Source of the DNA: Anaerolineae bacterium
Lineage (GTDB): Bacteria; Chloroflexota; Anaerolineae; Aggregatilineales; Phototrophicaceae
DNA length: 64,000 nt
Assembly (NCBI GenBank): GCA_023382675.1
Contig: JAHDWN010000001.1
Coordinates: 226,345-290,344 of the forward strand
Direction of reading: 5' to 3'
Part shown: piece after piece, positions 10,132 to 58,921 of the stretch
Numbering within the stretch: the first letter of the stretch is position 1
Layout of the letters: every line of letters begins with the position of its first letter
Notes under the pieces: model-generated
The model's database searches: none
The model's input: the letters and a program-made list of their open reading frames with translations, nothing else
Told to the model about the DNA's origin: nothing
Position numbers and translations under genes: made by a program

Positions 10132-10184
10132 AGTTGGATCACTTTCGTCTGCATAACCCTGCACATTGAAGAGAGTTGAAGCTC

Positions 10185-40737: not shown

Positions 40738-40744
40738 AACAAAC

Positions 40745-40771
40745 AGAGGCATGGTGGTTCGCCATGCCTCT
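40745..40771. terminator. Hairpin between convergent MFS and LPDTG-protein genes
   Basis: A perfect 10-bp stem AGAGGCATGG/CCATGCCTCT with a 7-base loop. On the minus strand it is followed by TGTTTGTTTTAC, so it best serves the minus-strand gene; on the plus strand no T-run follows. Confidence 0.75.
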
Positions 40772-40797
40772 ACAGTATTATTGGCTTTCAGCGCGGT

Positions 40798-41745
40798 TTA
40801 TTGCTGCTGGTCTTGCGACTTGTCACTGCGAGAGCGCATCCGGCGCGAAACGACAATTACGCCGACGAGACCGACCACCGCCAATGCCAGCAGGCCAAGT
40901 CCATCGCGACCGCCACCAGTTATATCGTCGAACAAACCTGTATCGGGCAGTGCCGTTGGCCGGGCGATTGGCTCGAAACCACCTTCGGCGGTCGGGGCGA
41001 CTTCGCTGGTAGCGGTCAATAAGACAGCCTGCTGCGTCAACGCCTGGAAAGTGACCGCGAGGGCGGTACCGGTTTGCTCAATGCTGTTCAGGCCAGGAGC
41101 AACCGTGGGGACAACCTCAGTCGGCCCAACGGTCGGCGCTTCTGCCGAGGCAGTCGCAGCAGCCGACGTCTGGAGTGCAATCGCTGTGCCGGTGGCGTCC
41201 GCCGCCTGCGCGGCACTGACGATAGCCGTCTGTGTCGCCTCGACAAATTGCGTCGCCGCAAGCAGTGTCGCATCCAGCGTAGCTGTTGGTGAAGGCGTCG
41301 GACTGGCCGCAGCAGCTGTCGCTGTTTGCGCTTCGAAACGCGCCTGCGCGGTTTGCGAGGCAAAAGCGTTAACGGCGATCTGCGTTTCCGTTGCATTGGC
41401 AAAGATCACAGCCTGCGTCGCGGTTTGCGCAGCCAGTGCCTCCGTGGTTTGATTCAGCTGTACCACGTAGGTTGCTGTCAACTGCGGCCCCGACGGCCCC
41501 TGGTTGAGCGCAAGGAACAACACCGCCGCCAGACCAATCAGGAACAGAATGATCATCACCGCAGCTAAGATGACGAACGTTCGATTACCGCCCTGACGCT
41601 CTGGCTCCGGCTCAAACCCGGGCATATCGCTATCGAAGTCACCTTCAAAGTCAGAAGGAAACTCATCTTCATCCGGTAACGGGGGTTCGTCATCGCGCCC
41701 GAAAAAATCGTCATCATCAAAATCGAACTCATTGCGGTCGCTCAT
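40798..41745 (-). CDS. Thr/Ala-rich membrane protein with C-terminal LPDTG sorting-like signal
   Basis: Protein of 315 residues, unknown function. Residues 1-50 are very acidic, with many Asp and Phe (NEFDFDDDDFFGRDDEPP). A helix follows near 56-81. Then comes a low-complexity region rich in Thr, Ala and Gln with repeated short phrases such as ATQTAIV and TATAAAA. The C-terminus reads LPDTG (residues 266-270), about 15 residues, a hydrophobic helix and RRMRSRSDK, the order of a sortase signal. Both ends can span the membrane, so it would be a loop protein unless cleaved at LPDTG. No sortase gene is in the window. Confidence 0.72.
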   Translation of the reverse strand: MSDRNEFDFDDDDFFGRDDEPPLPDEDEFPSDFEGDFDSDMPGFEPEPERQGGNRTFVILAAVMIILFLIGLAAVLFLALNQGPSGPQLTATYVVQLNQTTEALAAQTATQAVIFANATETQIAVNAFASQTAQARFEAQTATAAAASPTPSPTATLDATLLAATQFVEATQTAIVSAAQAADATGTAIALQTSAAATASAEAPTVGPTEVVPTVAPGLNSIEQTGTALAVTFQALTQQAVLLTATSEVAPTAEGGFEPIARPTALPDTGLFDDITGGGRDGLGLLALAVVGLVGVIVVSRRMRSRSDKSQDQQQ

Positions 41746-41797: not shown

Positions 41798-42883
41798 CTA
41801 ACTGAAAACCTCAAGGTTCTCTAGCGGAACATACAACGTTTCCCCGGTAAACAGGTGGATTTGAGCAGCGTGAACCCGCAATCCATTCTCCAATACAATC
41901 GGGGTATTTGGCAAGCCAATGATCTGTCCCACATTGCCGGCAAAATTACCACGTGTCACGCGCACCTGCATATCCACCTGCAGAATCAGATCATTACGTG
42001 GCGCTGGCGGCTTCTCTCCAGATTGCAGCGGGACATTCACAATGACTTCGGGACGCCTCGCCTCTAAAATACCGGGATGTACACCATCCAGCGTCGCCTG
42101 CCGGCCTTCCAGATTGGATAAGAAAGTATACAGAATAGCACTCATTCGCTGAGATCCAAATCCCTCGGTCAAGAGGATGGCGGCAGGCGAAGCCCGGACA
42201 GCGTCAATCAGTTCTGGTTCGATGCTTGGCGCAATCACGCCCAACAAGTCTTGATTTATGATCACCTGGAGCGAGGTCATGTTGAGAGGGCGTCGCGTGA
42301 CGACGATAGCGTTATGGAAGGGTGAATCCAGAGCCTCTCTGGAAACCTGCTCGAAACCATTGCTCGGCTCCATGCGCAGTGTCCCGGTGGCTCGTCTGTC
42401 GTTGCCCCAGACGCCTTGCAGAACAGCGCCGATCCCCTCGACCAGCGCGCCGCGCCCACGCCGCAAATCGACGACATGCCCATTCACGCCAGCTTCGACG
42501 ATGAGGTTTTCTCCCTCTTCCTGAAGGATAATACGGCCATCGCCGATATGAACCACAGTTCCCGTGATCGGAGAAAGCACGCCGCGTCTGCGACGACCAG
42601 CCTTCCCGGCGAGCAGTTCACCCGCTTGAACGGGCTCACCTACCTGCACCTGCAATTGTTCCTCCAGTTGTTCGGGCCTGCGTAAGCGCAGCACCCTGGC
42701 GGCTTCGATGATCGTGAAAGGGGCCAACGTCGCGCCCCGCGCCACGACCGTATGAAGATCCACCCGATCTCCGCGCGCGACTTCAATACTACCCGTTGCA
42801 TCAACAGGCAGCAGACGATCTCGCCGGAAGATCGTGAGTGGCAGCAGATGCCTCTGCTCAGGAAAATAGGTTTCGTAGTTCAT
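41798..42883 (-). CDS. Barrel-sandwich/KOW-like protein, last gene of the seven-gene membrane cluster
   Basis: Soluble protein of 361 residues. N-terminal segments (about residues 30-145) contain VGEPVQAGELLAGKAG and VLSPITGTVVHIGDGRIILQ, the pattern of a biotinyl/lipoyl-like barrel-sandwich hybrid but without a lysine acceptor site. The middle (about 180-265) looks alpha/beta. Near residue 320, VRVTRGNFAGNVGQIIGLPN resembles a KOW motif of the type that binds RNA or proteins. The ATG at 42883 is favoured by AAGGA 8 bases upstream; it lies inside the end of the preceding ATPase-like gene (26-base overlap), so the two are coupled. The family is not recognised by name. Confidence 0.72.
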   Translation of the reverse strand: MNYETYFPEQRHLLPLTIFRRDRLLPVDATGSIEVARGDRVDLHTVVARGATLAPFTIIEAARVLRLRRPEQLEEQLQVQVGEPVQAGELLAGKAGRRRRGVLSPITGTVVHIGDGRIILQEEGENLIVEAGVNGHVVDLRRGRGALVEGIGAVLQGVWGNDRRATGTLRMEPSNGFEQVSREALDSPFHNAIVVTRRPLNMTSLQVIINQDLLGVIAPSIEPELIDAVRASPAAILLTEGFGSQRMSAILYTFLSNLEGRQATLDGVHPGILEARRPEVIVNVPLQSGEKPPAPRNDLILQVDMQVRVTRGNFAGNVGQIIGLPNTPIVLENGLRVHAAQIHLFTGETLYVPLENLEVFS

Positions 42884-44861
42884 CAATGTCATCCTTGCCG
42901 CGCTGGCTGTCGTCCTGAACATCAGCCGCCTGAGGCGATCCACCCGAATGGAAGCGCTCGCGAACTTTTCTTTCCTGGGCTTCCTTGGCGCGCTGTTCGG
43001 TTTTCGCGTCTCTTTCGCCGCCGCGCCGCTGTTTCGACCGTTCCTTTCTGGGCGGCATTACGTCTTGCGATGACTCTTTCTTGCGCGCGGTGGCTTCCAA
43101 CCATTCAGGATTGATTGGACGGACTTCGTCACCGGTTGCCTGCGCATACCATGTGGGCATCTGCCCGGCTCGATCAGCCGCTGTGAGGGCAAGCGGCAAC
43201 GGTCGCCCACGAGCATCAAAAATAATACCTGCCGTGCCGCCGATTACTTCCCGACGGATCTTGCGTTTTCCGCCAATCGTGATCCCGCGACCGACCACAC
43301 GCACATCGATCAACGCTCGTACACCCAGGCTCAGTGGATACATCCAGAGAGTCCCACCCATGACCTCCTGTCTCACCACCTCTCCGTCAGGCAGTGTAAT
43401 GCGCACCCGGAGCGCGGATTTCCCTGGCCGCGGTTGGCCACTGACACTGAAGCACGTGCCGAGCGCGATGATGCCACCCGCTTCCAAAAGCTGCACGAAC
43501 GCCGCCTGCTGCACGCGCGCCAACGCCCCTAACGCAGGGATAAGCGCATTTCCATCCAATAGCAATTCGCTCATACCCTGTGGTTGCAGAGCATCGAGCA
43601 GCAACATGGCGGATAGCCCCGGACGCCCGGTATTGGCGAAGACCGCGCCGGCACCGATGATCACCCGGAAAGGCGGCAGCGAAGCATCTGGATTGGCGTT
43701 TGCCTCGTCCGTCCACAATGGCCGAGCCGTCTGCACCAGCATTTCTGCGCCAGCGCGCATCAACGCATGTTCCAGATACAACTCGCGCAGATTCTCTGGC
43801 ACAGTGCCTGGGCGAAGCGACTTGTTCAAACTAAAAGCGAGAAGCTCATTGTCATCTATGACAAACGGCAACCAGCGCTGCACTCGCGCAAAACCGCTGG
43901 CTTCAATCAGCGAGCCAGCGCTGTGTCCCAGACCAATATCGTTGCGAATGGTGGTTGTGCTGCGATCCCCGATCGCGGCGGAGAGTGTACTGACGGCACT
44001 CCCCACGTCGAGAGCGAGTGCGCTTCCCTGCACGCGCGCCAGATAGCGCGTGATCAGCCCATAACTTTGCGCCGTCGGCAAAACACCGAGCGCACTGCTG
44101 GCGGCAACTCTGTCAAAACCCGCGCCGCGTTGTTCCGCTACGCTGTCGTACGCGCTGGCAAGTTGTGCCGATGCCTGAGCAGGCTGTTCGCGTTCCGATG
44201 TCGGGCGAACGTTGTCGGCGGTCAAAACAATGGCGTATGGGCCAAAAAGCTCGCGGAGTTGCGGTTCAACATCAGAATTCCCGGCAAAAAGCACAAGACG
44301 GCGACGGTCATCGCCCATCAAGCGCATCGCCAGCGCTGCCCGGCTGGCCATCTGCAAAAGCGTCGATTGTGCGCCAGCTTCAGTGCCGCCAACCAGGAAA
44401 AACAGATCAGGGCGACTAAGGATGATGGCGTTGATCTGCGCCGATTCATCGCGATCATCTTCCAGCGTGAGCGTCTCTACCACCTGGACATACGTCCCGG
44501 CGACCGCTCGCAGCGCACTGGCTACGCTCATATCGCGGGTCAGGCCAATCATGACCGTGCGCATAGGCCGCCCGATACTGGTTGTCACCAGAAACGAGTC
44601 GACTCCAGAGCGATCCGGCAGTTCAGGGCTGAGCACCGTTTGATCTGGATGAAGCAACTGCCGCCCGGTGCCGTGGCTAATCTGGTGCAGCGCTCGCACC
44701 ATCCCGACATTCACGTCGCCGTGGGGAAATCCCGCCGTTGTCATCACCTCGCCATAGCCAACAGGACGGTAGGTTCCATCGACAAGATCGATCAAGACTG
44801 CGCGCGTATGCACATTGCCAAAGTCCACTGCCAGGATCGAGCCGGCGCGATTTTCCGCCAT
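42858..44861 (-). CDS. Actin-fold (ASKHA) ATPase-like protein, glutamate mutase L-like
   Basis: Protein of 667 residues resembling the MutL/GlmL-like group, which is related to sugar kinase/Hsp70/actin ATPases and unrelated to mismatch-repair MutL. Visible motifs are phosphate-1 ILAVDFGNVHTRAVLID (9-25), phosphate-2 ALALDVGSAVSTLSAA (281-296) and adenosine RVIIGAGAVFANTG (399-412). A C-terminal tail from about 590 is extremely charged (RKERSKQRRGGERDAK). GlmL helps coenzyme-B12 mutases, but no mutase is in this window, so a different role with the adjacent membrane proteins is likelier. GGAGG 8 bases upstream fixes the ATG at 44861. Confidence 0.82.
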   Translation of the reverse strand: MAENRAGSILAVDFGNVHTRAVLIDLVDGTYRPVGYGEVMTTAGFPHGDVNVGMVRALHQISHGTGRQLLHPDQTVLSPELPDRSGVDSFLVTTSIGRPMRTVMIGLTRDMSVASALRAVAGTYVQVVETLTLEDDRDESAQINAIILSRPDLFFLVGGTEAGAQSTLLQMASRAALAMRLMGDDRRRLVLFAGNSDVEPQLRELFGPYAIVLTADNVRPTSEREQPAQASAQLASAYDSVAEQRGAGFDRVAASSALGVLPTAQSYGLITRYLARVQGSALALDVGSAVSTLSAAIGDRSTTTIRNDIGLGHSAGSLIEASGFARVQRWLPFVIDDNELLAFSLNKSLRPGTVPENLRELYLEHALMRAGAEMLVQTARPLWTDEANANPDASLPPFRVIIGAGAVFANTGRPGLSAMLLLDALQPQGMSELLLDGNALIPALGALARVQQAAFVQLLEAGGIIALGTCFSVSGQPRPGKSALRVRITLPDGEVVRQEVMGGTLWMYPLSLGVRALIDVRVVGRGITIGGKRKIRREVIGGTAGIIFDARGRPLPLALTAADRAGQMPTWYAQATGDEVRPINPEWLEATARKKESSQDVMPPRKERSKQRRGGERDAKTEQRAKEAQERKVRERFHSGGSPQAADVQDDSQRGKDDIDELRNLFS

Positions 44862-44865
44862 GCAC

Positions 44866-45519
44866 TTAACCTCCGGTGATGCGCGCAATGACAGCCGCAA
44901 CGCGCTCACTGAAAATGGTCAGGCTGCTCAAGAGCGCACCCGCATAGAGCGCGCTCAACGTAACCACGATGAAGCCTTTGCCCACCACACTGATCACCTG
45001 AACCAGAAGCCCTCTGCGTCCTGTCGGCGCCAACTGACCTGGAATGCGCCGGGCGACATACATGAAATAGATCAAGGTGGCAATCACACCAATCAACACG
45101 ATCACGGCTGACAGCCTATCATCGGTGATGCTATCTGCCGTAACATTTGCCAGCGGAATCAGCGTACCGCTCACGACGCCGACCATAGCGACCGCCGTGC
45201 CGACACCAATAATGAAGGCCAGCGCCAGGTTGCCCAAACGCCCAAAACGGGGCGAAATCTTGAGCAGGAGCAGCGCGCCGAGAATGACCGGCGTTAGGCC
45301 AAAGGCGCGTTCCGCGACCCCAAGATTCGGCGCTAAAACCGTCGTCCTCAGCCACGGCAAGATCGCACTCTGAAGCGCGACGATAAAGACGAAACCAGCA
45401 GCGACCCCCGCAAAAATGTAGATCGCCAACCGATATAGAAAATTATCACCCAGTAGATAGCTGAAGATCATAAGGGTGAAGACGACCCCGGCCCACAGCC
45501 CGATTTGATCAAGACTCAC
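44866..45519 (-). CDS. Multi-helix membrane protein of the seven-gene cluster
   Basis: Protein of 217 residues with about six hydrophobic segments, beginning near residue 5 (IGLWAGVVFTLMIFSYLL) and ending near 205. The GTG start at 45519 overlaps the stop of the giant acidic protein as GTGA, with AGGAGG about 9 bases upstream. A longer frame reaches into the preceding gene but is not favoured. Its stop is 4 bases from the ATPase-like start. I do not recognise a family; location inside the tightly packed cluster implies it is a subunit of the same complex. Confidence 0.75.
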   Translation of the reverse strand: MSLDQIGLWAGVVFTLMIFSYLLGDNFLYRLAIYIFAGVAAGFVFIVALQSAILPWLRTTVLAPNLGVAERAFGLTPVILGALLLLKISPRFGRLGNLALAFIIGVGTAVAMVGVVSGTLIPLANVTADSITDDRLSAVIVLIGVIATLIYFMYVARRIPGQLAPTGRRGLLVQVISVVGKGFIVVTLSALYAGALLSSLTIFSERVAAVIARITGG

Positions 45520-48500
45520 GAGCTCTTCCTCCTCAGGAAGACGGCGCGCAAAATTCCCGTCAATGCGCCAAAACTCACCACTAGGAAAGCTCCCACGAGG
45601 CCAGTATTCATGGCATACCACTGTAGTGCTTGCGCATCAGGCTCACCTTCGCGATTTGCCAGCGTGCTATCTTCAGTCTGCGTGGCTGGTTCTTGTAGAA
45701 ATGTGCGTTTGCCGTTGGTCGATTCGTCTGGCACCGGTGTCTCTTCGACAATGACGATCAAACCTGAGGACACCCAGCCTTCAGTGCCATCTTCGAGACG
45801 GATATTCACCCAGTCTCCAGTATCGTTGTAACCCAGTACCAAGACCTGCGTGTTTCGCGCAATTCCGGTCACACGGCGGAAATCGGTACCAGGGCCAGCG
45901 CGCAAATTCGCCCCATCCGCCGAGATCACAATTGCACTCAGGAGCGGCTGTCCCGCTGGCTCAGATGTCGGAGCAGCGCCAGGCGTCTGCTGATTCTCTG
46001 GGGTAAGCGCCGCAGACGGTTCCGGTGTTCCAGTAACTTCTCCCTGTGAGTCCGGTTGTTCGACCGCCGGCGCAACAATGGTGGGGCGTATTGGCCGCGC
46101 ACCACGCCTGACAGCATCGACAGCTCCTAACAGGTTGCCATAGGTATAGGCATCTTCATAGCCCACCAACAGCCCCCGCACGACACTTTCATTACGTGCA
46201 TAGGGTTCCGCCAGTGGCGCAGCGGCATAACTGACGCCCACGACCAGCGGGCGAGATGCTAGCGGCGCGATCTGCTCTGCATAGGCCCGCACATCTTCAG
46301 CCCGATCTGTCACCATGACGATCAAGGCCAGATTCGATAGTGATTCCAGATTCAAATTTTCGGTCTGACCGTTGATGTCATAGGTCAATAGTCCGGAAGT
46401 GGCTTCGCTGAATGCGCGCAGACCGACAGCGCCGCCAGGCAGGAACCGCGCGGCATAGTATTCAATATTGGGTTCTATTGGCGTGCGCTGATTGATCCGC
46501 TGGAGAAAAGCCCGGTCAGCATTCACCCCATCAACAAAATGCTCCGCCCGCAGGACACCAAAGGTATTTTCACTCACAAATATTGGTCTGGCACCGCGAA
46601 GCAGCACATGTCTGACCAGTGCATCCGCCAGCGGATCGAGTTCGCCAGCAGACGCAGCGCCATACTCCAACCCAATCATCACCAGATCGTATTCTTGAAG
46701 CTTGTCAATCTGATCGAATGCCTGGCGTTCCTGGCTGCCAAAAGCGAACTGCGTCGGCGGAAGGGCGCCGATGCGCAACTCTCTTACGAAGAACGGCGCT
46801 ATGATGCCTGCTGCCAGCAGCAGTGACAGAAGCAGCCGGTCGATGCGATAGGTGCGTTTGCGTCTAACGCGGCGTTTTCTCCGGGCTTCTGCCATTGTGG
46901 CGGCACGTTCGCCGGCCGCGCCGTCTTCATCCTGAAGGCTTATGCCTTCATAAGTTAGGTCGATGGCCGATAATCGGTTCGTACCCTGCATCTGAATCGG
47001 CTCATCGCTGCTGCCGACCAGTTCACCCAACAGAGCGACCTGTGCTCGCTGCTGATCGCTGAGGTTTACGCCGCCAAAGAACTCACCCGGGTCTATCGTC
47101 ACTGGCACAGGGACCAATGCATCATCCACACCAGGCAATACCTTCGAGACGTTATCCTCCTCACCCTGAGGCGCAATCTGCACTGCGCGCATCTCGTCTG
47201 TGCTGCGCTTGCGCAGCTTTTGCAGGCGCTCCGAAAGCTCTGTTTCAGGCCGATCTTTCATCTGACGGGCCAGCGCCGCTGCCGAAACCGCCCCTACCGA
47301 AGCCTGCAATTCACCGAGTATGTCTGACTGTTCAAGACCCGGTGGTTCCGGCAGAGTCTCATCTGTAGACGTATCCGGCAGCGCCTGATCGAACATGGCT
47401 TCGAGATCGAACTCGTCAATACCCGATCTTAAGCCGGAGAATTCGTTGCTTCGCGACAGGACCGCCTCCGGTGCGTCCAAACCGGCGAGAAAGCTGTCCA
47501 GATCGCCGACCGGGGTTTCGTCGCCGAAAAGCGCGGCAGCCGCCTCGCTCGCCGTTTCGTCTGTAGCGGACGGCAGCGCAGAAGCATCAATCTCTTGCAG
47601 CCAGCCCGGCACTTGTTCGGCGGCACTATCTTCAGCGGTCATCTCGAAATCGAGATCACCGTGCTCAAGCGGCGCAGGCGCAAAGTCATCAATGGGCGTT
47701 TCGAATGACCAATCATCCTGGCTCTCGGTATCCGATGGGAGGCTGTCAGCATCGAATGTGAAAGCAGCAACTGCCGGCAGATCTTCCTGCGGCAATTCCT
47801 CCGTCATCTCCGGTGCCTCCCACAGTGAGGGGTTGTCTTCGCCGGAAATGTCTGTGGTTTCACTCATTTCCGGCTGACCAAAACCCTCAAGGAAATCCAG
47901 ATTGGGTCCGGTCGTATCCTCTGGCGGCGATTGCGCCTCATCTGGCGGAGGCGATTCTCCAGGGAGAGGCGCATCTCCTAATCCCATCGCCGCAAAGAAA
48001 TCATCGTTATCGGCAAAATCCATTGATGCGTCAACTGGCGCGCCTTGTCCGGAAGCATCGCCCAGATGCTCATCCTCAAACGCTGCAAAGAGCGCTTCGA
48101 GATCAGCTTCTTCGGCCTCATCACTTTGCGCCTGCCCCTGAGGGTCTCCCTGCCCGAAAAGCATCGCCGTCGATGGCGGAAGATCGGCTTGATCTTCGAG
48201 AGAGGCGTCAAGACTGGCGAAAAGTTCATCCAGATCCTCATCGGCACCCGCATTGAGGCCATCATCAGGCAACGACTCAGACCCGTCTTCCGGCGGCTCA
48301 TTCATTCCGCCGAAGACCGCGTCGAAATCATCGTTTTGTGGCATAAGTTGCTCCGGTTGTGCTGTTTGTTGTTCCCGCACATTATGTACGGACGACCCGG
48401 TTCCAACGACAGATGGAGACTGGGCTTGGTCTTCGGAAATATCCTCAATCAAGCCTGTTGATGTATTCTCTTCATCGACTTCAGATTCGCCAAACAAAAG

Positions 48501-50621
48501 ATCCAATTCATTAGTTTGCACTAGATACCGAGGTGTGCTGATTACCTGGGCAACATCCAGGGGTTCTTCCTCCAAATCGGCAACGAGCGCATCAAACGCC
48601 GCCTCAGGATCGTCACCTGCCGCGCCAGGAGCGGCCAGGTTGTCCAGAAGAGAACCAAGATCATCCATCTGGGCAGATGTGGACGGCGACCTCGAAGGCT
48701 CAACGCCTACCCCGGAAAAGTCATTCGGAACCGCGTGCGTGTGATCGATTTCTGACGGCGCGCTGTCATGAAACGCCGCATTTCCGCTCTCGTCTTCATC
48801 CGGCAAAAGATCATCGAAAGAGACGTGCTGCAGCCAGGCGAGATCATCATCTGCCCTGGCCGATTCGGACTGATCTTTCAAGGTTGCACCGCTCGCCAAC
48901 CGTTCGAGAATTAAGTATTCGTCGTCGAGCCTGGTTGCAGCGTCCGTATTCGTGTCGGGGAACTCGGTTTCGGTGGATGCCAGTGTCTCTTTAGAAGCTA
49001 GCGCTTCCTCACCGAACGACAATGGATCGATTTCGTCGGTGACGAGGCTGGCTAACTGCTCACGCGGGTCAGTCTCTTGGGGCGGGGACGTAATCTGTTC
49101 GTCAAATAAATCAGCATTGGCAGACGGCAACGGATCCAGGTCGAGGATGACAGTGGCACCTGCCGTAGTGCCTGCCTTACGTGTGGGATCGACAGCGTTG
49201 TCCTGCCTATCGAAGTAAGTGTCTTCAATCGGAGATGTGTCAAATTCCTCATCACCGGAATCGCTGTCCGGCGATACACCTCTCGCGAAGTTCCCGGTAT
49301 TTGATGCAGTAGGCAGAGCATCCGTGTCCAACGGCCCTAATTCTGACAGCCAATCGGGCGCTGCTGATTTCGAATCGTCAGCAAAAAAGAAGTCCTGCCC
49401 TGCCTCGCCACGATCTCCCGACTCATCGGAACTCGCTTGTTTCTCCCCAGATGTGTCTTCGGGGTGGCTCGTGACCGACTTCACCATAGAGTTGATCTCA
49501 TTGAGCCAGCTCAAGCTGTCGGCATCAAGCGCGATCTCAGCAGTGCCTCCGGCGTTTGGCGATGTTGTATCAGGGCTGGTTCTCCCCGTATCCGCATTGG
49601 CAAAGGCGTTCAAATCCGGCTCATCGAAATCCGACTCGCGAGCCAAATCAGCAGGCAATTCTTGATTGAGAGAGGCTGTGTCTACTGGTGGAGGCGCACC
49701 GGCCAACTCTGCTGGGACGGACACTTCCATGGAGTCTTGCCGATGATCGGAGAGCGCCGCACCTGGAACAGCATCGTTCGCCGCTGCGGAATCTTCACCA
49801 AGCGACGCATAAGCAGCATAAAAGTCATCATCGGGAAGTGCTTGAGGGAATGGTTCCGCTGCCGGTTCCCAATCTGACACGAAGCCTTGATCAGCCTCAA
49901 AACTCTGTCCGGCAGCCTCATTCATGGACGTTTCTGGTTGCTGCCAGTTGAATTCATTCAGAAATGTATCCGTCGCATCACCCGCTGCTGGCGCGTCTTC
50001 GGCAGAACCACCAAACAAATCGGGCATCATCGCAGCGACATCATTTAGATCAGGTGGCAGTTCCCAGGCTTCGCTGTCGGGCGGTGTCTCATCAACCGCC
50101 GGTTGATCCACTGTGCCTTGCGCCAGGAACCAGTCTGGTGCCTGGCTTTCGTCTAGTTCTTCTAACCCAAGAAACCAGTTCGGGAGTTCACCTGTTGCAG
50201 CGGGCGCAGCAGCCGCCTCTTCCAGGAAAGGCGAAGTGGCTGCCGTATCTTCTGATAAGAGATCGGGCACTTCCTCATCGACACTGCGTTCGCGATTGGC
50301 TTCCTGCTGGATTTGCAGCCACTCATCGTAGGAAAGCTCGCTCTGCACGGTATCCGGCAGCGCATCCGCAGAATCGAAGAAGTCCGGCGAAAGTTCTTTA
50401 GTTGCACGGAGAAGCGCTTCAGAAATCGGCGCTTCTTCATCCTCTGGTTCTTCATCCGCCAGCCATGGGGGCAGAGTCACCCCCGATGATGGCGGTTGGG
50501 CATGATCAATCCCCTCGGCAGGTTCAACGCGATCCGTTTCCCGCCGAGTATCGACATCATCGTCAGGTTCGTCCGCCCCTTTCAACCATGGGGGCAGAAA
50601 ATTGTCTGACTCACCACCCAT
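45516..50621 (-). CDS. 1701-residue acidic modular protein with extracytoplasmic domain and SH3b
   Basis: Very long membrane protein. Residues 1-1240 are acidic and predicted disordered (rich in Asp, Glu, Ser, Pro, Ala), studded with short linear motifs: W-L/F motifs (LPPWL at 9 and 50, APDWFLAQ 161, DSLSWLNEI 368, APDWLSELG 421, LAWLQHV 594, VPGWLQEID 1004) and acidic-L-x-x-L/M-F motifs (DELFASLD 798, DLEALFAAFE 840, DLEAMFDQA 1072). A basic stretch and one helix (about 1246-1280) lead to an external alpha/beta-like domain (about 1285-1540: YDLVMIGLEYGAASAGELDP, RGARPIFVSENTFGVLRA). A Pro/Thr linker, an SH3b domain (DGANLRAGPGTDFRRVTG) and a C-terminal helix near 1675-1695 follow. Function unknown; cluster position suggests the scaffold of the complex. 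Confidence 0.78.
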   Translation of the reverse strand: MGGESDNFLPPWLKGADEPDDDVDTRRETDRVEPAEGIDHAQPPSSGVTLPPWLADEEPEDEEAPISEALLRATKELSPDFFDSADALPDTVQSELSYDEWLQIQQEANRERSVDEEVPDLLSEDTAATSPFLEEAAAAPAATGELPNWFLGLEELDESQAPDWFLAQGTVDQPAVDETPPDSEAWELPPDLNDVAAMMPDLFGGSAEDAPAAGDATDTFLNEFNWQQPETSMNEAAGQSFEADQGFVSDWEPAAEPFPQALPDDDFYAAYASLGEDSAAANDAVPGAALSDHRQDSMEVSVPAELAGAPPPVDTASLNQELPADLARESDFDEPDLNAFANADTGRTSPDTTSPNAGGTAEIALDADSLSWLNEINSMVKSVTSHPEDTSGEKQASSDESGDRGEAGQDFFFADDSKSAAPDWLSELGPLDTDALPTASNTGNFARGVSPDSDSGDEEFDTSPIEDTYFDRQDNAVDPTRKAGTTAGATVILDLDPLPSANADLFDEQITSPPQETDPREQLASLVTDEIDPLSFGEEALASKETLASTETEFPDTNTDAATRLDDEYLILERLASGATLKDQSESARADDDLAWLQHVSFDDLLPDEDESGNAAFHDSAPSEIDHTHAVPNDFSGVGVEPSRSPSTSAQMDDLGSLLDNLAAPGAAGDDPEAAFDALVADLEEEPLDVAQVISTPRYLVQTNELDLLFGESEVDEENTSTGLIEDISEDQAQSPSVVGTGSSVHNVREQQTAQPEQLMPQNDDFDAVFGGMNEPPEDGSESLPDDGLNAGADEDLDELFASLDASLEDQADLPPSTAMLFGQGDPQGQAQSDEAEEADLEALFAAFEDEHLGDASGQGAPVDASMDFADNDDFFAAMGLGDAPLPGESPPPDEAQSPPEDTTGPNLDFLEGFGQPEMSETTDISGEDNPSLWEAPEMTEELPQEDLPAVAAFTFDADSLPSDTESQDDWSFETPIDDFAPAPLEHGDLDFEMTAEDSAAEQVPGWLQEIDASALPSATDETASEAAAALFGDETPVGDLDSFLAGLDAPEAVLSRSNEFSGLRSGIDEFDLEAMFDQALPDTSTDETLPEPPGLEQSDILGELQASVGAVSAAALARQMKDRPETELSERLQKLRKRSTDEMRAVQIAPQGEEDNVSKVLPGVDDALVPVPVTIDPGEFFGGVNLSDQQRAQVALLGELVGSSDEPIQMQGTNRLSAIDLTYEGISLQDEDGAAGERAATMAEARRKRRVRRKRTYRIDRLLLSLLLAAGIIAPFFVRELRIGALPPTQFAFGSQERQAFDQIDKLQEYDLVMIGLEYGAASAGELDPLADALVRHVLLRGARPIFVSENTFGVLRAEHFVDGVNADRAFLQRINQRTPIEPNIEYYAARFLPGGAVGLRAFSEATSGLLTYDINGQTENLNLESLSNLALIVMVTDRAEDVRAYAEQIAPLASRPLVVGVSYAAAPLAEPYARNESVVRGLLVGYEDAYTYGNLLGAVDAVRRGARPIRPTIVAPAVEQPDSQGEVTGTPEPSAALTPENQQTPGAAPTSEPAGQPLLSAIVISADGANLRAGPGTDFRRVTGIARNTQVLVLGYNDTGDWVNIRLEDGTEGWVSSGLIVIVEETPVPDESTNGKRTFLQEPATQTEDSTLANREGEPDAQALQWYAMNTGLVGAFLVVSFGALTGILRAVFLRRKSS

Positions 50622-50624
50622 AGC

Positions 50625-51227
50625 CTACTCGCGATACGAACGATCTTGTCCTACCAGAACGCGCACACCAGTGACAATCGTTGCCAGCGCAATGCCGAAC
50701 AGGATTCCACGTGCGCCGGCACTGACAGGTACCGACAAAACCCAATCTCGAATCTGCCTGGCCGGCGCAAATTGCTCCAAGGGGAGCGCGCCAACCAACA
50801 AAATCAGCAGCACGATGACAAACAACAGGCCTGCCCAGGTAAACCGTTTGTGCAGCAGGCGATAAGCGCCATAGACAAGCGCAAAAAAGAGCAGTCCCGC
50901 TAAAGCGGATTCAACCGGCACTTGCACAGAATTAAGCAAAAGATTGGTGGCGTCCGTCTGTCCAGCCAGCCAGAAGCCAACTGTCGCAAAGGCACTTATC
51001 AAGAGCACCAGGCTGTAAACCCAACCGCGTCTTAGACGGAGAATGCGCCCGACATGCACAATGATCAGGTTGATGACACCCGCTGCGATCATCAGGGCCA
51101 GCGTAGCAGCCGCCAGGCGCAAGAACGCCGCAGCCAGCGCGCCATCGCCAATGGTGAGGTCATAGATGGTGACCAGCCCAACGCCAATCGTGATGACCGA
51201 CGCAAGGATCGCCAGCAGACGCCGCAT
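50625..51227 (-). CDS. Six-helix membrane protein of the seven-gene cluster
   Basis: Protein of 200 residues that is mostly membrane-embedded. Hydrophobic segments lie near residues 4-24, 30-60, 68-90, 105-123, 130-148 and 173-192. It ends VRVLVGQDRSYRE. The start codon shares one base with the stop of the DUF6754-like gene (TGATG), indicating coupled translation, and the giant gene starts 3 bases after its stop. No motif points to a transport substrate. Family not recognised. Confidence 0.75.
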   Translation of the reverse strand: MRRLLAILASVITIGVGLVTIYDLTIGDGALAAAFLRLAAATLALMIAAGVINLIIVHVGRILRLRRGWVYSLVLLISAFATVGFWLAGQTDATNLLLNSVQVPVESALAGLLFFALVYGAYRLLHKRFTWAGLLFVIVLLILLVGALPLEQFAPARQIRDWVLSVPVSAGARGILFGIALATIVTGVRVLVGQDRSYRE

Positions 51228-52018
51228 CAGCCGCCTCCCCGCAACAGGGCGCTTAGATAAACGCCACCGGTAAGCCGATCCGCAACCATCAGCAAAAGCC
51301 CTGCGATCAACAGGACACGCAGCATGTCCAGCGCGACCACACCGCCGACCTGTGCTGCGCTGCCACCCAGATATGCGCCACCGGCAAACATTTCCTCGCC
51401 GATAAGTTCTTCATCAGACAGAGCATAAGCGACAGCTTGGCCTTCAAGTTGATCGCTGGCAGCAATTGCGCCCTGCCCGCGCCGGTGGGCCGCATCCATG
51501 ATCAAGGCGAGTTCAGGCCCGAAGCTGCCCATGAAGATATTTGCGCTCACTTTTTCGTCGCTGATTGCGGCCGTCAAAGCCGCTGCGAATGCGAGCGAAC
51601 GCGGGCCATCGGGATACCACTGAACGGCCGTATTTCTGAACTGATCCGTGCGCCCACGCAAACGATAAGCGCGCCGCAATACGTCATAGGCTAGAGGGAG
51701 CGCAGATACCTCGCTCATCGTGAGCAGGGGTGTTTGGGCGCCAACAGCAGCGCGTGTCGCTAGCAGAGTGAAGACTTCGGCAGCGGCGACCATCAAGGGC
51801 GTGGTAGTGCCCGACGGGATGACACTGCCAAATGAAAAATGGAGGGTGCGATCTGCTTCGAGGGATTCACTCACCAGCAGCGGCATCGCTGCGTAGGCAG
51901 GATGATGGCGGAGCACAATGCTCTGGCGACGAATACGAGCGACTGCGGTCGCGAGCAAGCTTACAACCAATGTCACCAGTAGAATGATGATGGTGAGAAT
52001 TCCGGCATCAACTTGCAA
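51227..52018 (-). CDS. DUF6754-like membrane protein
   Basis: Protein of 263 residues. It has an N-terminal helix (LTIIILLVTLVVSLLATAVA), a soluble alpha/beta domain with LHFSFGSVIPSGTTTPLMVA, SALPLAYDVLRRAYRLRG, ANIFMGSFGPELALIMDAA and LIGEEMFAGGAYLGGSAAQV, then a C-terminal helix. This order and wording recall the DUF6754 proteins of Chloroflexota and related phyla, an assignment from memory and not a search. Start is TTG at 52018 with GGAGG 7 bases upstream. It shares one base with the next gene. The function of the family is not known to me. Confidence 0.75.
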   Translation of the reverse strand: MQVDAGILTIIILLVTLVVSLLATAVARIRRQSIVLRHHPAYAAMPLLVSESLEADRTLHFSFGSVIPSGTTTPLMVAAAEVFTLLATRAAVGAQTPLLTMSEVSALPLAYDVLRRAYRLRGRTDQFRNTAVQWYPDGPRSLAFAAALTAAISDEKVSANIFMGSFGPELALIMDAAHRRGQGAIAASDQLEGQAVAYALSDEELIGEEMFAGGAYLGGSAAQVGGVVALDMLRVLLIAGLLLMVADRLTGGVYLSALLRGGG

Positions 52019-52050
52019 GAGATCGCCTCCATCATTTGCGGTTTGCGCGC

Positions 52051-52305
52051 TCAGTCGGACGTTTCATCACGAAGATAGTGCCTTATTCTGGCAATGCCTT
52101 CAGGCGTCTCCAACGCACGCGCCAACGTTTCCAAACGTTCAAGACTTACCCACCCACCAACGAGGGGTTGAGCCACGCGAATGATTTGTGCGCCCAGTGG
52201 AGCCAATGGTTCAAAGGCATCAAGCCCGGTGAGAATCCATCCACCCCACTCACGCTGTTTCCAGGAACGCAACCACGACAGATCATCACGATAGTCATCT
52301 GGCAT
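52051..52305 (-). CDS. Small protein opening the seven-gene cluster
   Basis: Protein of 84 residues: MPDDYRDDLSWLRSWKQRE, a weakly hydrophobic amphipathic middle (GWILTGLDAFEPLAPLGAQI) and a charged end. It contains a W-L motif (DLSWLRSW) like those repeated in the giant protein. It could be a peripheral membrane or assembly subunit. An extended -10 element lies so close to its ATG that translation may begin at the 5' end of the mRNA. The DUF6754-like gene follows 32 bases later. Family not recognised. Confidence 0.6.
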   Translation of the reverse strand: MPDDYRDDLSWLRSWKQREWGGWILTGLDAFEPLAPLGAQIIRVAQPLVGGWVSLERLETLARALETPEGIARIRHYLRDETSD

Positions 52306-52311
52306 AAGCCC

Positions 52312-52320
52312 AGTATAACA
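52312..52320 (-). promoter_or_regulatory. Extended -10 promoter of the seven-gene cluster, likely leaderless
   Basis: Minus strand TG-T-TATACT (52320 to 52312) ends 6 bases before the ATG at 52305. With normal spacing, transcription would start at or next to the A of the ATG. No -35 is needed for an extended -10. No Shine-Dalgarno can fit between, consistent with leaderless translation. Confidence 0.55.
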
Positions 52321-52509: not shown

Positions 52510-54033
52510 ATGAATGCAGCCAGTGTTTCTGAAAATGCGTCGATTGAAGACCGCCCGGACATTGTCGTTCGCAACCCAGTTACAGGCGAGACGGTCGGCG
52601 CTGTTCCGAACCTGTCAGCCGCCCAGATCGCCGCCCTAGCAGAACGTGTACGCGCCGCGCAACCTGAATGGGAAAATCTTGGCGTGCGCAAACGGGCGCA
52701 TCTTTTGCGTGCCTGGGCGGATTTGCTCTGGGAGCGGCGCGATGAGATGGTACGGATCATCCGTTCAGAAACAGGCAAAAACAAAACCGGTGCCCTCAGC
52801 GAAATCTTCGGTACGGACTTCACCGTCACCTATTACTTTCATCGGGCAGCGCATTTCTTGCGCCCAAGGCGTGCCCAACCGCTTTTTCCTGTATTTCAGC
52901 GGCTGACGGTGCATTATCGCGCTCATGGCCTGGTGGGTATCATCGCGCCGTGGAACTATCCGCTCTTGTTGGTAGCATCTGAGCTTGTCCCCGCCTTGAT
53001 TGCGGGCAACGCGGTATTGCTGAAACCGAGCGAGCTGACACCGCATACCTCGCTCTTTCTCGCCGATCTGATGTATCGCGTGGGCGTGCCTAAAGAGATC
53101 TTCCACGTCGTTACGGGTGACGGCGTGACCGGCGCTGGCGTGATCGACGTGGTCGATTATGTTCACGTCACGGGCAGTACAGCGACAGGCCGCAAAGTCG
53201 CCATACGTGCGGCGGAACGGTTAATCCCCTATAGCCTGGAGTTGGGCAGCAAAGACCCGCTGATCATTTTGCGGGACAGCAATCTTGATCTGGCCGTGAC
53301 GGGCGCGATGAAGGGTGCCTTCGAGAATGCCGGGCAGGCCTGCGTCAGCACCGAGCGCGTCTATGTCGAGGACGCGATCTATGAATCCTTTGTCGAGCGT
53401 GTGCGCCATTTCACGCAAAAAATGAAGGTTGGCGCTGAAGATGGCATGGGTGTTCACATGGGCAGCATGACCCATGAACGCGAGCTTATTCGTGTCGAGC
53501 GGCATCTGGACGAAGCCGTGGCGAAGGGCGCGAAAATCATCGTCGGTGGAAAACGCCGGCCTGACCTGGGTCCGCTGTTCTTCGAGCCGACCGTTGTGGT
53601 CGATGTCGATCACACGATGGCGCTCATGCATGAGGAGACTTTCGGCCCGATTCTGCCTATCATGCGCGTCCGCGATGCAGACGAGGCGATCCGCCTCGCG
53701 AACGACAGCGACTTTGGACTGTCGAGCAGTATCTATACGCGCGACTTCCAGCGTGCGGAAGAGCTTGCAAAACGGATACGCACCGGGGATGTCGGCATTA
53801 ACCGCACCGGGCTTGTGACCATCGGCACGCCCACCTTGCCCAGCGGCGGTGAAAAGGAGAGCGGCATTGGGCGGCGCAATGGCGAACAAGGCCTCATGCG
53901 CTTCGTCAAGTCACAGTCGATTTTGACCGATAAGCTGATTTACAATCCGGCGCGCATTGAATTCATCGACCCTCTCACCCTGTTGGGGGTTCATCTGATA
54001 CGCATCTTGCGCCGTTGGCTGCCGTTCATATGA
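52510..54033 (+). CDS. NAD(P)-dependent aldehyde dehydrogenase
   Basis: Oxidises an aldehyde to the acid. The cofactor and active-site features are complete: PWNYPLLLVASELVPALIAG, the Lys of VLLKPSELTPH, the glycine motif VHVTGSTATGRKVA, the general base Glu in YSLELGSKDP, the catalytic Cys in GQACVSTERVYVED, and EETFGPILPIMRV. Residues beyond about 480 form a C-terminal extension (NPARIEFIDPLTLLGVHLIR) not needed for catalysis and typical of a membrane-associated or succinate-semialdehyde-like branch; the substrate is uncertain. GGAG lies 9 bases before the ATG. Length 507 residues. Confidence 0.93.
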   Translation: MNAASVSENASIEDRPDIVVRNPVTGETVGAVPNLSAAQIAALAERVRAAQPEWENLGVRKRAHLLRAWADLLWERRDEMVRIIRSETGKNKTGALSEIFGTDFTVTYYFHRAAHFLRPRRAQPLFPVFQRLTVHYRAHGLVGIIAPWNYPLLLVASELVPALIAGNAVLLKPSELTPHTSLFLADLMYRVGVPKEIFHVVTGDGVTGAGVIDVVDYVHVTGSTATGRKVAIRAAERLIPYSLELGSKDPLIILRDSNLDLAVTGAMKGAFENAGQACVSTERVYVEDAIYESFVERVRHFTQKMKVGAEDGMGVHMGSMTHERELIRVERHLDEAVAKGAKIIVGGKRRPDLGPLFFEPTVVVDVDHTMALMHEETFGPILPIMRVRDADEAIRLANDSDFGLSSSIYTRDFQRAEELAKRIRTGDVGINRTGLVTIGTPTLPSGGEKESGIGRRNGEQGLMRFVKSQSILTDKLIYNPARIEFIDPLTLLGVHLIRILRRWLPFI

Positions 54034-56302: not shown

Positions 56303-57733
56303 CTACTGGACTACGGGCACACTGTTGATGTTAGCGCCTGCCGGCAGCACCACATACTCTGCCGACACCCAGCCGACGATACCGTTATAGTTGACCTGAT
56401 ACCACTGGTTCGCCGCGTTGCGCCCAAGCAGGGCAGCGGTGCGCCCAGCGGGCAGACGACCAAGACGGCTGAACTGCGTGCCCGGCCCCTGGCGGATGTT
56501 GACCGTGTAGGGTGTTGCCGTCACGGCCAGGCCTGTGTTGGCGGAGCCACCACCTTGATTGGGCGTCGGGCTCGATCCATCGACGACAGGCACGGACGTA
56601 GCGTTGTAGGGCGTCACAAAGCGCGCCGATACCCAACCGGTCTGGCCGTTGACATTGATCTGGTACCACGTGCTGTCGCTGTTGCGACCGGTGATCGGGT
56701 AGGTCTCATTGCGATTGATGCGCGTCAAAATCGCGCCGCCAGTCACACTCGGTGCGCTGCGCACATTCAATCGGAAGGCACCGGTGACGGTCAGCGATGG
56801 CCCGGAGATCGCCCCCGGCCCGACCGGGATCGCGGTGGCAGCAGTCGCATTGAACTGCGTAAGCCGGTAATCGAGAAAGGCCTGCCCGCCAAATTCTGCG
56901 AATTCGACGACGAAGTTGTTGTTGCCCTGTGGGAGATTCAAACTCGTGGTATAAGTTTGGCCGGTCGCCCCGCCCATCTGATTGATCACCAGCGCGCCGT
57001 TGACATAAACGCGCACACCGTCATCTGCACGCACACTGATCTGGTACTGGCCTGCGTTGAGATTCTGGGTACTCGTCCAGCGTGCCGACCAGTTATCCGC
57101 CGGTACGGACGACAGCGGCGACCCACTGCCCCAATCGCGCCCTGGCACACTCTCGGTCAGGATCGCTGCCGGGTCGCCCAGGAAATTGGGGTTACTGTAA
57201 TACTGTACCGTCCAGGCCGCAGTATTGATCGGCACAGTGACCGGGGGTACGAGTATTGGCCCCTGGGGATTGGTCGCGAGATCGGCCCACGACAGATACA
57301 GGTAAGCATCGCCTGTGATCTCGACATAGTCGATCTGCACGTGCGTCGGGCCGTTCAATTGCACGTCGGCAGACACCGTCTGGCCTGCGCGCCCCTGGCC
57401 GAGCGTGTTGATCAACGGGATAGGCTGGAAGTTGATCGTTACCCGCGCTTCATCATCCGCGAGCATGTAGAAACGATACGTCCCTGCCGGGAAAACATAG
57501 TCGGTCGCGAAGCGCACCGAGAATCCATCGCCGGGAATTCCCGCTGATGGCGACCCCGCGCCCCAATTGAAACTGATCGCGCTTTCATTGCGCGTCATCA
57601 CCGATGAGCCGGTCAGCGTCGGATTGTCGTAATACTGTCCAATCCAGATTGGCCCCTGTGCAGCCGCAGGTTGGACAAGCAGTACGCTGAACAGCATGAG
57701 CGTCGCCAAAATAACGACCACTCTACGCGTCAT
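56303..57733 (-). CDS. Secreted surface protein with two PA14-like and two SH3b domains
   Basis: Exported protein of 476 residues. The ATG at 57733 has GGAGG 9 bases upstream and gives a signal peptide ending AAA-QG. Two PA14-like modules follow (about residues 28-150 and 165-295), each with the ADDxxRV phrase (MLADDEARVTINFQPIPLIN; SVRADDGVRVYVNGALVINQ) typical of carbohydrate-binding PA14 domains. Two SH3b modules (about 305-385 and 405-470) carry FRLNVRSAPSVTGGAIL and YTVNIRQGPGTQFSRLGRLP, each closing with GWVSA. The whole looks like a glycan and peptidoglycan-binding envelope protein with no catalytic domain. A strong promoter lies upstream. Confidence 0.88.
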   Translation of the reverse strand: MTRRVVVILATLMLFSVLLVQPAAAQGPIWIGQYYDNPTLTGSSVMTRNESAISFNWGAGSPSAGIPGDGFSVRFATDYVFPAGTYRFYMLADDEARVTINFQPIPLINTLGQGRAGQTVSADVQLNGPTHVQIDYVEITGDAYLYLSWADLATNPQGPILVPPVTVPINTAAWTVQYYSNPNFLGDPAAILTESVPGRDWGSGSPLSSVPADNWSARWTSTQNLNAGQYQISVRADDGVRVYVNGALVINQMGGATGQTYTTSLNLPQGNNNFVVEFAEFGGQAFLDYRLTQFNATAATAIPVGPGAISGPSLTVTGAFRLNVRSAPSVTGGAILTRINRNETYPITGRNSDSTWYQINVNGQTGWVSARFVTPYNATSVPVVDGSSPTPNQGGGSANTGLAVTATPYTVNIRQGPGTQFSRLGRLPAGRTAALLGRNAANQWYQVNYNGIVGWVSAEYVVLPAGANINSVPVVQ

Positions 57734-57780
57734 GGTTGTGTGCCTCCGCATCATTTACAAGTGCTGAATTGTCGTTATTC

Positions 57781-57809: not shown

Positions 57810-57997
57810 CGTAGCGTAGGGCTACCGTCAGCCGAGCGCCCTAATTGCGTATCCTTATGCGGCAAAATCCATGTGTCATGGGCTTGTTTGCCCAACCGCG
57901 GCAGGGAACACATTGCAACTAGGCACCGTTGTGCATAATCTTGATGTGGGCCGGTTGATTGTGACAAGTGCTTACCACCATTCTGGAGTGTCAGTCG

Positions 57998-58921
57998 ATG
58001 TTGAGGCGCATCCTACTCTATCTTTCCTCGGCTATATGGGCACGCCGCATCGTGACTCATTGGGGCGTGGCACGGCGCATGGCCCGACGGTTCGTAGCGG
58101 GTGAAACGTTAGCAGAGGCGATTGCAGCGGCACAAACGCTCAACAATCGTGGCTTGCTCGTCTCGCTGGATTACCTGGGCGAAAGTGTCAAGAATGCGCA
58201 GGATACAGCCGATGTTGTTGCAATGTATGGTCGGCTGCTGGCGCGCATTAAAGCAACCGAGACGCAGGCGAGCGTTTCGCTAAAACTGACTCATCTGGGT
58301 CTGGACATCAGTGAAGAGCTGTGTGTGACCAACCTGCGCCGGATTCTGACCGATGCCCAGGCGCGCAACATCCTGGTGACCATCGACATGGAAAGCAGCG
58401 CCTACACAGAGCGCACCCTGCGTATCTATCGGACGATGCACGACGAATACGATTTCAAAAACGTCGGCACGGTGCTCCAGGCCTATCTTTACCGCACCGC
58501 CGAAGATGCACGCACATTGGCTACCGAGGGTGCGCATGTCCGCCTGTGTAAAGGCGCATATCTGGAGCCGCCAGCGGTCGCTTTCCCACAAAAGGCGGAT
58601 GTAGATCGCAACTTCGTCACCATCATGACCGAGTTTCTGCATACGCCTGGGACTGCCTATCTGTGCATCGCGTCGCATGATGAAGGCATCATCCAGCAGG
58701 CAGAAGCGCTCCTGGCACAAGACTCGTCATTGACCAGCCGGAGCGAGTTTCAGATGCTCTATGGTGTACGGTCAGCCCGGCAAGACACGCTGGCAAAAGC
58801 CGGTTATCCAGTGCGTGTCTACATGCCGTTCGGCGAAGCATGGTATCCCTATTTCATGCGCAGGCTGGCAGAGCGCCCTGCCAACCTGTGGTTCATGGTC
58901 AAGAATCTGCTGCGGAATTGA
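57998..58921 (+). CDS. Proline dehydrogenase
   Basis: FAD enzyme that oxidises proline to pyrroline-5-carboxylate, the first step of proline catabolism. It is the monofunctional form of 307 residues. Family motifs are SVSLKLTHLGLD, VTIDMESSAYTERTL, VLQAYLYRTAEDA, VRLCKGAYLEP (Lys-Gly-Ala-Tyr), CIASHDE, and VRVYMPFGEAWYPYFMRRLA near the end. GGAG 10 bases before the ATG at 57998 decides the start over one ten codons earlier. The pyrroline-5-carboxylate dehydrogenase partner is not adjacent; the aldehyde dehydrogenase at 52510 is a different subfamily. Confidence 0.93.
   Translation: MLRRILLYLSSAIWARRIVTHWGVARRMARRFVAGETLAEAIAAAQTLNNRGLLVSLDYLGESVKNAQDTADVVAMYGRLLARIKATETQASVSLKLTHLGLDISEELCVTNLRRILTDAQARNILVTIDMESSAYTERTLRIYRTMHDEYDFKNVGTVLQAYLYRTAEDARTLATEGAHVRLCKGAYLEPPAVAFPQKADVDRNFVTIMTEFLHTPGTAYLCIASHDEGIIQQAEALLAQDSSLTSRSEFQMLYGVRSARQDTLAKAGYPVRVYMPFGEAWYPYFMRRLAERPANLWFMVKNLLRN

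Follow-up and report, generated by a model that had tools for sequence, protein, structure and literature searches.

The window analysed here is a stretch of 64,000 nucleotides (nt) from an Anaerolineae bacterium of the Chloroflexota family Phototrophicaceae (GenBank assembly GCA_023382675.1, 6.4 Mb in 110 contigs; contig JAHDWN010000001.1, positions 226,345 to 290,344). Its minus strand carries a cluster of eight genes whose products include an actin-like protein of the ASKHA fold, a very large acidic scaffold, several membrane proteins and a protein with a tail like that of sortase substrates. We tentatively read this cluster as an envelope module.

Layout of the gene cluster

Translation and reading of the sequence confirmed seven coupled genes, running from position 52305 down to 41798, as described in a first-pass annotation of the window (Table 1). 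Its picture of ends that overlap or nearly touch holds from gene 2 onwards: genes 2 and 3 share one base in a TGATG, genes 4 and 5 overlap in a GTGA, genes 6 and 7 overlap by 26 bases, and gaps of 3 and 4 nt separate genes 3 and 4 and genes 5 and 6, respectively. Genes 1 and 2, on the other hand, lie 32 nt apart. Strong Shine-Dalgarno sequences had also been reported, and Shine-Dalgarno-like purine runs are found upstream of genes 2, 3, 5, 6 and 8, whereas that of gene 4 is weak. An eighth gene had been missed. It begins on the same strand 52 nt downstream of gene 7, and it belongs with the other seven because of this spacing, its retention in related loci and the terminator-like hairpin behind it; the unit is therefore treated as eight genes. 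The hairpin has the longest stem (12 pairs) among 15 terminator-like sites, a number to be set beside the 12.1 sites expected from shuffling, and the same scan listed no consensus promoter immediately 5' of gene 1.

In the Pfam comparison, gene 2 is a member of DUF6754 (E = 5e-22, 78.7 bits against a curated cut-off of 27), a family without function, gene 6 belongs to MutL (E = 7e-54, 183.7 bits against a cut-off of 27) and gene 4 contains an SH3_3 domain (E = 7e-12). Gene 7 has only sub-threshold matches to RnfC_N, NQRA_N and KOW, gene 8 has nothing above chance, its one match being sub-threshold (E = 0.8), and genes 1, 3 and 5 match nothing at E ≤ 1. Gene 1 precedes gene 2 in most related loci. 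Hydropathy places in gene 2 one hydrophobic segment near either end and a weaker third between them. Gene 4 is composed of an acidic N-terminal region (residues 1-1240; D+E 24%, K+R 3.5%), a transmembrane (TM) segment at residues 1260-1278, a presumed external domain with the SH3b domain and a C-terminal TM segment at residues 1678-1696. The acidic region has six P-x-W-[LF] motifs, at residues 10, 51, 147, 162, 422 and 1005, against 0.36 expected, and none of 200 shuffles reached this count. Profile comparisons of the gene 2 domain with the gene 4 external domain, of gene 7 with gene 4, and of gene 3 with gene 5 did not find common ancestry. Anti-phage defence was rejected as a role, PADLOC models matching none of the eight proteins at E ≤ 0.01.

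Gene 7 brings in one alternative, a device for transport or redox chemistry whose cofactor would be carried or coupled by the barrel-sandwich of gene 7, similar to the N-terminal domains of NqrA and RnfC. Among 22 members of the gene 7 family, matches at E ≤ 0.05 are to NQRA_N in nine, RnfC_N in nine and Biotin_lipoyl_2 in four. A sequence search of the PDB, which gave nothing for genes 2 and 6, returned for gene 7 a lysozyme-repeat chain with the best E value, which looks like a chance match, followed by KOW and NqrA chains. However, the matches of the window's gene 7 stay below the cut-offs and no redox partner was recognised nearby, and we regard such a device as very unlikely.

Table 1. 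Features of the gene cluster in the window, and repeat proteins preceding gene 6 in reduced loci
Feature	Position	Strand	Basis or remark
Gene 1, 84 residues, no family, no TM	52051..52305	-	Pfam, hydropathy
Gene 2, DUF6754 (PF20539), conserved middle	51227..52018	-	Pfam, hydropathy
Gene 3, polytopic protein of 200 residues with 6 hydrophobic segments, no family	50625..51227	-	Pfam, hydropathy
Gene 4, 1701-residue scaffold	45516..50621	-	Pfam, hydropathy
Gene 4, region with six P-x-W-[LF] motifs	47598..50594	-	Motif count against shuffles
Gene 4, first TM segment	46788..46844	-	Hydropathy
Gene 4, SH3b (SH3_3) domain	45756..45917	-	Pfam
Gene 4, C-terminal TM segment	45534..45590	-	Hydropathy
Gene 5, polytopic, 6 hydrophobic segments, no family	44866..45519	-	GTG start (45519) overlaps gene 4 stop
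Gene 6, MutL-family ASKHA protein, C-terminal extension with conserved DARGRPL	42858..44861	-	Pfam, alignment; ATG start (44861)
Gene 7, barrel-sandwich/KOW-like	41798..42883	-	ATG start at 42883, the best choice and that of relatives
Gene 8, N-terminus acidic, one TM before a Thr/Ala-rich part, then LPDTG, TM and basic tail	40798..41745	-	Pattern, hydropathy
Gene 8, LPDTG sorting-signal-like motif	40936..40950	-	Pattern
Hairpin resembling a terminator, T-rich tail, downstream of gene 8	40743..40773	-	Terminator scan
Repeat protein, reduced locus L220	8081-9901	+	
Repeat protein, reduced locus L221	9469-11385	-	
Repeat protein, reduced locus L222	6289-9843	+	
Repeat protein, reduced locus L223	9383-11524	-	
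Repeat protein, reduced locus L224	9569-11356	-	

Conservation of the gene order and reduced loci

Gene 6 was found in 55 of 61 genomes, comprising the window's own and 60 relatives. Stop codons lie inside the match in four of the 55 (G027, G037, G042 and G050), and could represent pseudogenes, assembly errors or a match that runs over; G042 gave an open reading frame (ORF) of normal length. Twenty loci drawn from gene 6 matches formed a first set, and the gene families were sought with profiles built from the loci. The order and strand of genes 1-7 are identical in 19 of these 20 ASKHA-anchored loci, the remaining one (L064) lying on a contig that begins inside gene 4, and gene 8 is present in all 20. 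A second set of 20, picked from DUF6754 matches, includes nine loci with genes 1-7, six with genes 1-6 and no gene 7, and five that reach a contig end, in one of which (L087) gene 1 was also not detected. When both sets are pooled, none of the 40 loci has an altered order: 28 have genes 1-7, six are without gene 7 and six are at a contig end.

These fetched loci overlap in part with a larger collection, the best 80 of at least 515 confirmed stretches (591 candidates), for which the DARGRPL stretch was the sole search pattern. By profile, genes 1-7 are contiguous in 47 of the best 80; 31 were scored as truncated where the contig or locus ends, a class into which the script's rule also puts L122, complete and with an extra gene 2 match, and two are otherwise incomplete (the scaffold is split in L137 and gene 1 was not detected in L179). 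The titles of all 80 name Chloroflexota or groups within this phylum, and DUF6754 was found in none of 14 control genomes from outside it. The commonest flanking family outside the core occurs in 7 of 41 loci. The same order is thus kept while the flanks change, and therefore the set travels as a unit. In the window itself, an aldehyde dehydrogenase gene (52510-54033, plus strand) diverges from the cluster; beyond it lie a minus-strand gene (56303-57754) with two stretches each of PA14 and SH3b matches, and a proline dehydrogenase gene (57968-58921, plus strand).

The breadth of the distribution was estimated in 301 Chloroflexota genomes, drawn evenly. DUF6754 is present in 67 and the gene 5 family in 74, four matches to the latter, all in family f25 and with E values from 6e-5 to 6e-4, being probably false. 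The gene 6 family, classical GlmL included, is found in 180, an excess explained in part by the existence of reduced loci. To describe these, 20 further loci were drawn from gene 6 matches, mostly from those without gene 5. In 17 of them, gene 6 and gene 7 are no more than 300 nt apart, and two others (L236 and L237) hold classical GlmL without gene 7. In L236 the GlmL gene (about 8295-10144, minus strand) is directly preceded by a gene that reads as GlmS-like, and its genome has two matches over the cut-off to the glutamate mutase E subunit.

In seven of the 20 further loci (L220-L224, L229 and L234), the gene upstream of gene 6 encodes at least two P-x-W-L motifs. Zinc-ribbon matches occur in the upstream proteins of L222, L223 and L229, as well as in the one-motif protein of L233, among six reduced-locus proteins scanned, and those of L220, L221 and L224 show cysteine pairs at their N-termini. 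Each of the seven multi-motif proteins terminates in a TM segment or in a basic/aromatic tail, and the array of the reduced form therefore seems to be retained at the membrane. The L220-L224 proteins have no predicted TM segment, a zinc-ribbon-like cysteine-pair start, 7-15 repeats of the LPxW[LM] type and C-terminal tails that are basic/aromatic or look amphipathic.

The first-pass annotation had taken the genes for one system, with scattered, unlinked homologues as the sign of the contrary. Linkage mostly prevails, as the 19 of 20 ASKHA-anchored loci and the 47 of the best 80 illustrate; what departs from it are the reduced sets and four families (f30, f40, f66 and f69), in which gene 7 is present but unlinked in 13 of 13 genomes. 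In these 13 loci (L264-L276), a gene reading as a receiver-domain regulator is found within three genes after gene 7, and genes reading as ATP synthase subunits follow further downstream in several.

Motif arrays and the actin-like protein

The array of the window's gene 4 is not an isolated case. Among 38 scaffold ORFs, the motif counts of 33 were unmatched by any shuffle, and the largest array has 63 motifs; the partial ORF of L064 has a single motif, a count reached by 13 of 200 shuffles. With three ORFs added by hand, there are 455 PxWL instances in 37 of 41 scaffolds, and the consensus is [DE]-[VL]-P-[DA]-W-L-[RQ]-[EDG]; two arrays contribute about 106 of the instances, and weighting per locus gives a similar consensus. 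Such sites are also found outside the scaffold. The gene 6 proteins of family f40 (L089 and L093) have PxWL motifs within their own tails, and at least one P-x-W-hydrophobic site occurs in 12 of the gene 6 proteins examined, including that of the window. As gene 6 proteins themselves carry such sites, gene 7, gene 1, gene 6 and FtsA are all candidate readers of the motif.

An actin-fold protein at the membrane is also the plan of FtsA/FtsZ and of MreB-MreC-MreD. No MreB, MreC or MreD family match was found in the module with Pfam. The FtsZ tail peptide, in turn, resembles the array motif in part, and the arrays could serve an accessory of division or morphogenesis by mimicking this peptide and engaging FtsA or another reader. 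All 30 FtsZ tails end in P-x-F-L-R, with D/E at position -2 in 97%, and set against the docking pattern [DE]-[IVL]-P-x-F-L-R the membrane scaffolds have D/E at -2 in 63%, V/L/I at -1 in 66% and R/K at +4 in 36% of sites. D/E at -2, L/I/V/M at -1 and R/K at +4 occur jointly in 84 of about 455 scaffold sites, compared with 1 of 52 unrelated PxWL sites, and the scaffold flanks, as arranged, match the FtsZ profile more closely than their shuffles do (0 of 1000). FtsA exceeds its cut-off in 31 of 31 genomes, and SepF was found in none of the 31. However, the arrays prefer W (515) over F (27), whereas F is found in 30 of 30 FtsZ tails, position -2 is mostly A in the reduced arrays, and the flanking families read contain no recognised division gene. 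The mean profile scores are also negative, with the 52 unrelated sites close behind (-6.2 against -5.6). Because W replaces F and the mean scores do not separate the arrays from unrelated sites, mimicry of FtsZ stays a weak lead, and we judge this role quite improbable. Gene 6 was rejected as FtsA itself: TIGR01174 matches four places in the window's own genome, none of which is gene 6, and the FtsA of this genome lies elsewhere.

In an alignment of 22 gene 6 proteins, G15, D285, G287 and G405 do not vary at all and T19 hardly does; these residues we take to be the motifs of the ASKHA nucleotide site. GlmL, of the same family (MutL, PF13941, an accessory of methylaspartate mutase), is proposed to act on a B12-dependent mutase as its chaperone or reactivase, and gene 6 could act likewise. 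It belongs to that Pfam family and shares an ASKHA-type domain of about 450 residues, and two classical GlmL proteins are placed, with weak support, among module-type proteins in a tree of 57 gene 6 sequences. The deep forks of this tree are weakly supported; it neither separates GlmL cleanly nor shows the full or the reduced form to be the older. In contrast to GlmL, gene 6 has an extra C-terminal region with DARGRPL and scores 61.5 bits on the NCBIfam GlmL equivalog against a cut-off of 475, and its partner is gene 7 and not a glutamate mutase. The E subunit of glutamate mutase exceeds its cut-off in none of 33 module-type genomes, six of which have weak sub-threshold matches, but in both of the classical GlmL genomes (G149 and G238), a GlmS-like gene, by reading, lying directly upstream of GlmL in one; the window's own genome has no match to it at E ≤ 0.001. 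The earlier statement that no B12 mutase accompanies gene 6 thus stands for glutamate mutase only. A glutamate mutase role was rejected on these counts, and service to a B12-dependent mutase seems to us extremely unlikely.

Another precedent is the PilM-PilN-PilO platform of type IV pili, in which an actin-like cytoplasmic protein lies beneath membrane proteins that reach the wall. The module resembles this broad plan, a cytoplasmic ASKHA protein with wall-reaching membrane proteins, and could align or assemble an appendage or a secreted polymer. PMC13319060, which treats PilMNO, proposes PilN/PilO as an alignment scaffold for the archaellum in one Chloroflexota species. Nevertheless, gene 6 matches MutL and not PilM, and no pilin, secretion or pilus ATPase or other appendage gene was found by Pfam among 18 window proteins scanned, or among the flanking families read. 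An appendage platform is therefore unlikely in our judgement.

No described counterpart was found among the systems tested or within the literature searches made, in line with the first-pass view that the function of such a complex is not known to have been described. DUF6754 is named in no paper found by literature search. Searches on Chloroflexi signature genes, on FtsA/SepF/FtsZ, on FtsZ peptides, on sortase and on envelope/ASKHA returned no description of the module in titles and the beginnings of abstracts, and a search on GlmL with glutamate mutase or actin-like proteins brought up only work on mesaconase and fumarases.

A probable link to the wall and a proposed envelope module

Gene 8 has TM segments at residues 58-76 and 282-300, the LPDTG motif at residue 266 and basic residues after the second segment, so that its C-terminus has the motif, hydrophobic segment and basic tail shared by LPxTG sortase substrates. 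It differs from these in an additional N-terminal TM segment and an acidic N-terminus, and because both stand beside the sorting tail, gene 8 could bridge membrane and wall, with putative processing. Of 96 family members, 68, among them the window's, have the relaxed pattern LPx[TS][GAS] in their last 75 residues, a count in which some members are truncated and some genomes are present twice. An ORF that reads as a sortase is located on the minus strand of L152, a fetched stretch that also holds a module copy; a pattern scan of the fetched loci for sortase gave two matches, of which the one in L238 does not look like a sortase.

The presence of the wall was approached through murA, searched in the 301 Chloroflexota genomes and evaluated in the 217 with a completeness of 90% or more and a contamination of 5% or less. 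Genomes without a match, or with E weaker than 1e-38 (taken as other enolpyruvylshikimate phosphate (EPSP)-type enzymes), were counted by hand as lacking a strong murA; they number 31, against 186 with it. Module-type gene 6 is present in none of the 31 and in up to 131 of the 186 (Fisher 7e-15), where some of the 131 may hold classical GlmL and the test treats related genomes as independent, the association being confounded by ancestry. The sole gene 6 family match among the 31 (G238) is a classical GlmL accompanied by glutamate mutase E. According to PMC10284905, peptidoglycan is ancestral in Dehalococcoidia and was lost before their marine radiation, and the murA-lacking families found here may correspond to these wall-loss Dehalococcoidia. 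Three findings speak for the first-pass proposal of a complex spanning cytoplasm to cell wall: the SH3b domain, the sorting tail of LPxTG type in gene 8 and the absence of the module from murA-lacking genomes. As a whole, that interpretation is partly supported, and the observation beneath it confirmed.

With somewhat less than even confidence, we read genes 1-8 as one Chloroflexota envelope module that links cytoplasm, membrane and wall. Starting from the linkage, domain anatomy and motif anatomy described above, we infer a physical complex, a topology beyond hydropathy, ATP use, sortase processing and a biological role. Gene 6 would be a cytoplasmic nucleotide-binding protein of the actin-like ASKHA fold. 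The acidic tail of gene 4 would extend into the cytoplasm with its repeated P-x-W-L docking motifs, and the same protein would span the membrane and display the external domain with its wall-binding SH3b. Genes 2, 3 and 5 would build the membrane part, and gene 8 would cross the membrane and probably be joined to peptidoglycan by sortase. Acting with gene 7, gene 6 may switch the assembly at its cytoplasmic face by binding or hydrolysing ATP, so that both proteins, at a membrane-tethered docking array, would control a membrane assembly that grips the wall through SH3b and gene 8. The module would thereby tie a cytoplasmic platform to the wall and aid the organisation of envelope growth or mechanics; its role is probably envelope organisation.

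Several observations weigh against this reading. D13, the aspartate of the first motif of gene 6, is not invariant, and four short scaffolds (294, 299, 436 and 527 residues) have no PxWL motif. At least 55 of the 186 murA-bearing genomes have no gene 6 match, and the module is therefore not needed for having a wall. The murA-lacking genomes are mostly small and probably stem from few lineages, so that the association with gene 6 may reflect a single loss or genome reduction, and five incomplete genomes (73-88%; G062, G089, G189, G288 and G296) have gene 6 without a strong murA, contrary to a strict link. Furthermore, no detected gene 1, 2, 3 or 5 accompanies the 17 gene 6-7 pairs of the reduced loci, which indicates that the membrane part is not essential to the gene 6-7 core. 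These pairs, like the unlinked gene 7 of the four families, would also be expected from a co-regulated operon whose products act apart, genes 6 and 7 as a cytoplasmic pair and the membrane genes as another device that shares the transcript. Against separate roles stand the single gene order, maintained over large distances while the flanks vary, and the membrane-tethered-looking PxWL protein that precedes gene 6 in seven of the 20 further loci; we hold such an operon to be rather unlikely.

The linked envelope module, our preferred reading, can be carried a step further. It is possible, though doubtful, that walled Chloroflexota have here a machine of a new class, built on an actin fold and switched by ATP, which couples a cytoplasmic platform physically to peptidoglycan. 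In such a machine, multivalent P-x-W-L arrays would collect the ASKHA and KOW proteins beneath the membrane, polytopic proteins would relay their state, the SH3b scaffold and a sortase-anchored strut (gene 8) would hold the wall, and the reduced three-protein form would be the minimal core. None of the systems tested here fits the module in its entirety.

The envelopes of monoderm Chloroflexota are unusual and their organisation is poorly known. The module consists mostly of uncharacterised genes, whose order is kept in many lineages of the phylum and whose products have visible links from cytoplasm to wall; if the reading is true, it would be a tangible candidate for an envelope machine peculiar to the phylum. 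Binding tests are made simple by the linear-motif arrays and by the reduced form, and DUF6754 and a non-mutase branch of MutL/GlmL would gain a testable role.

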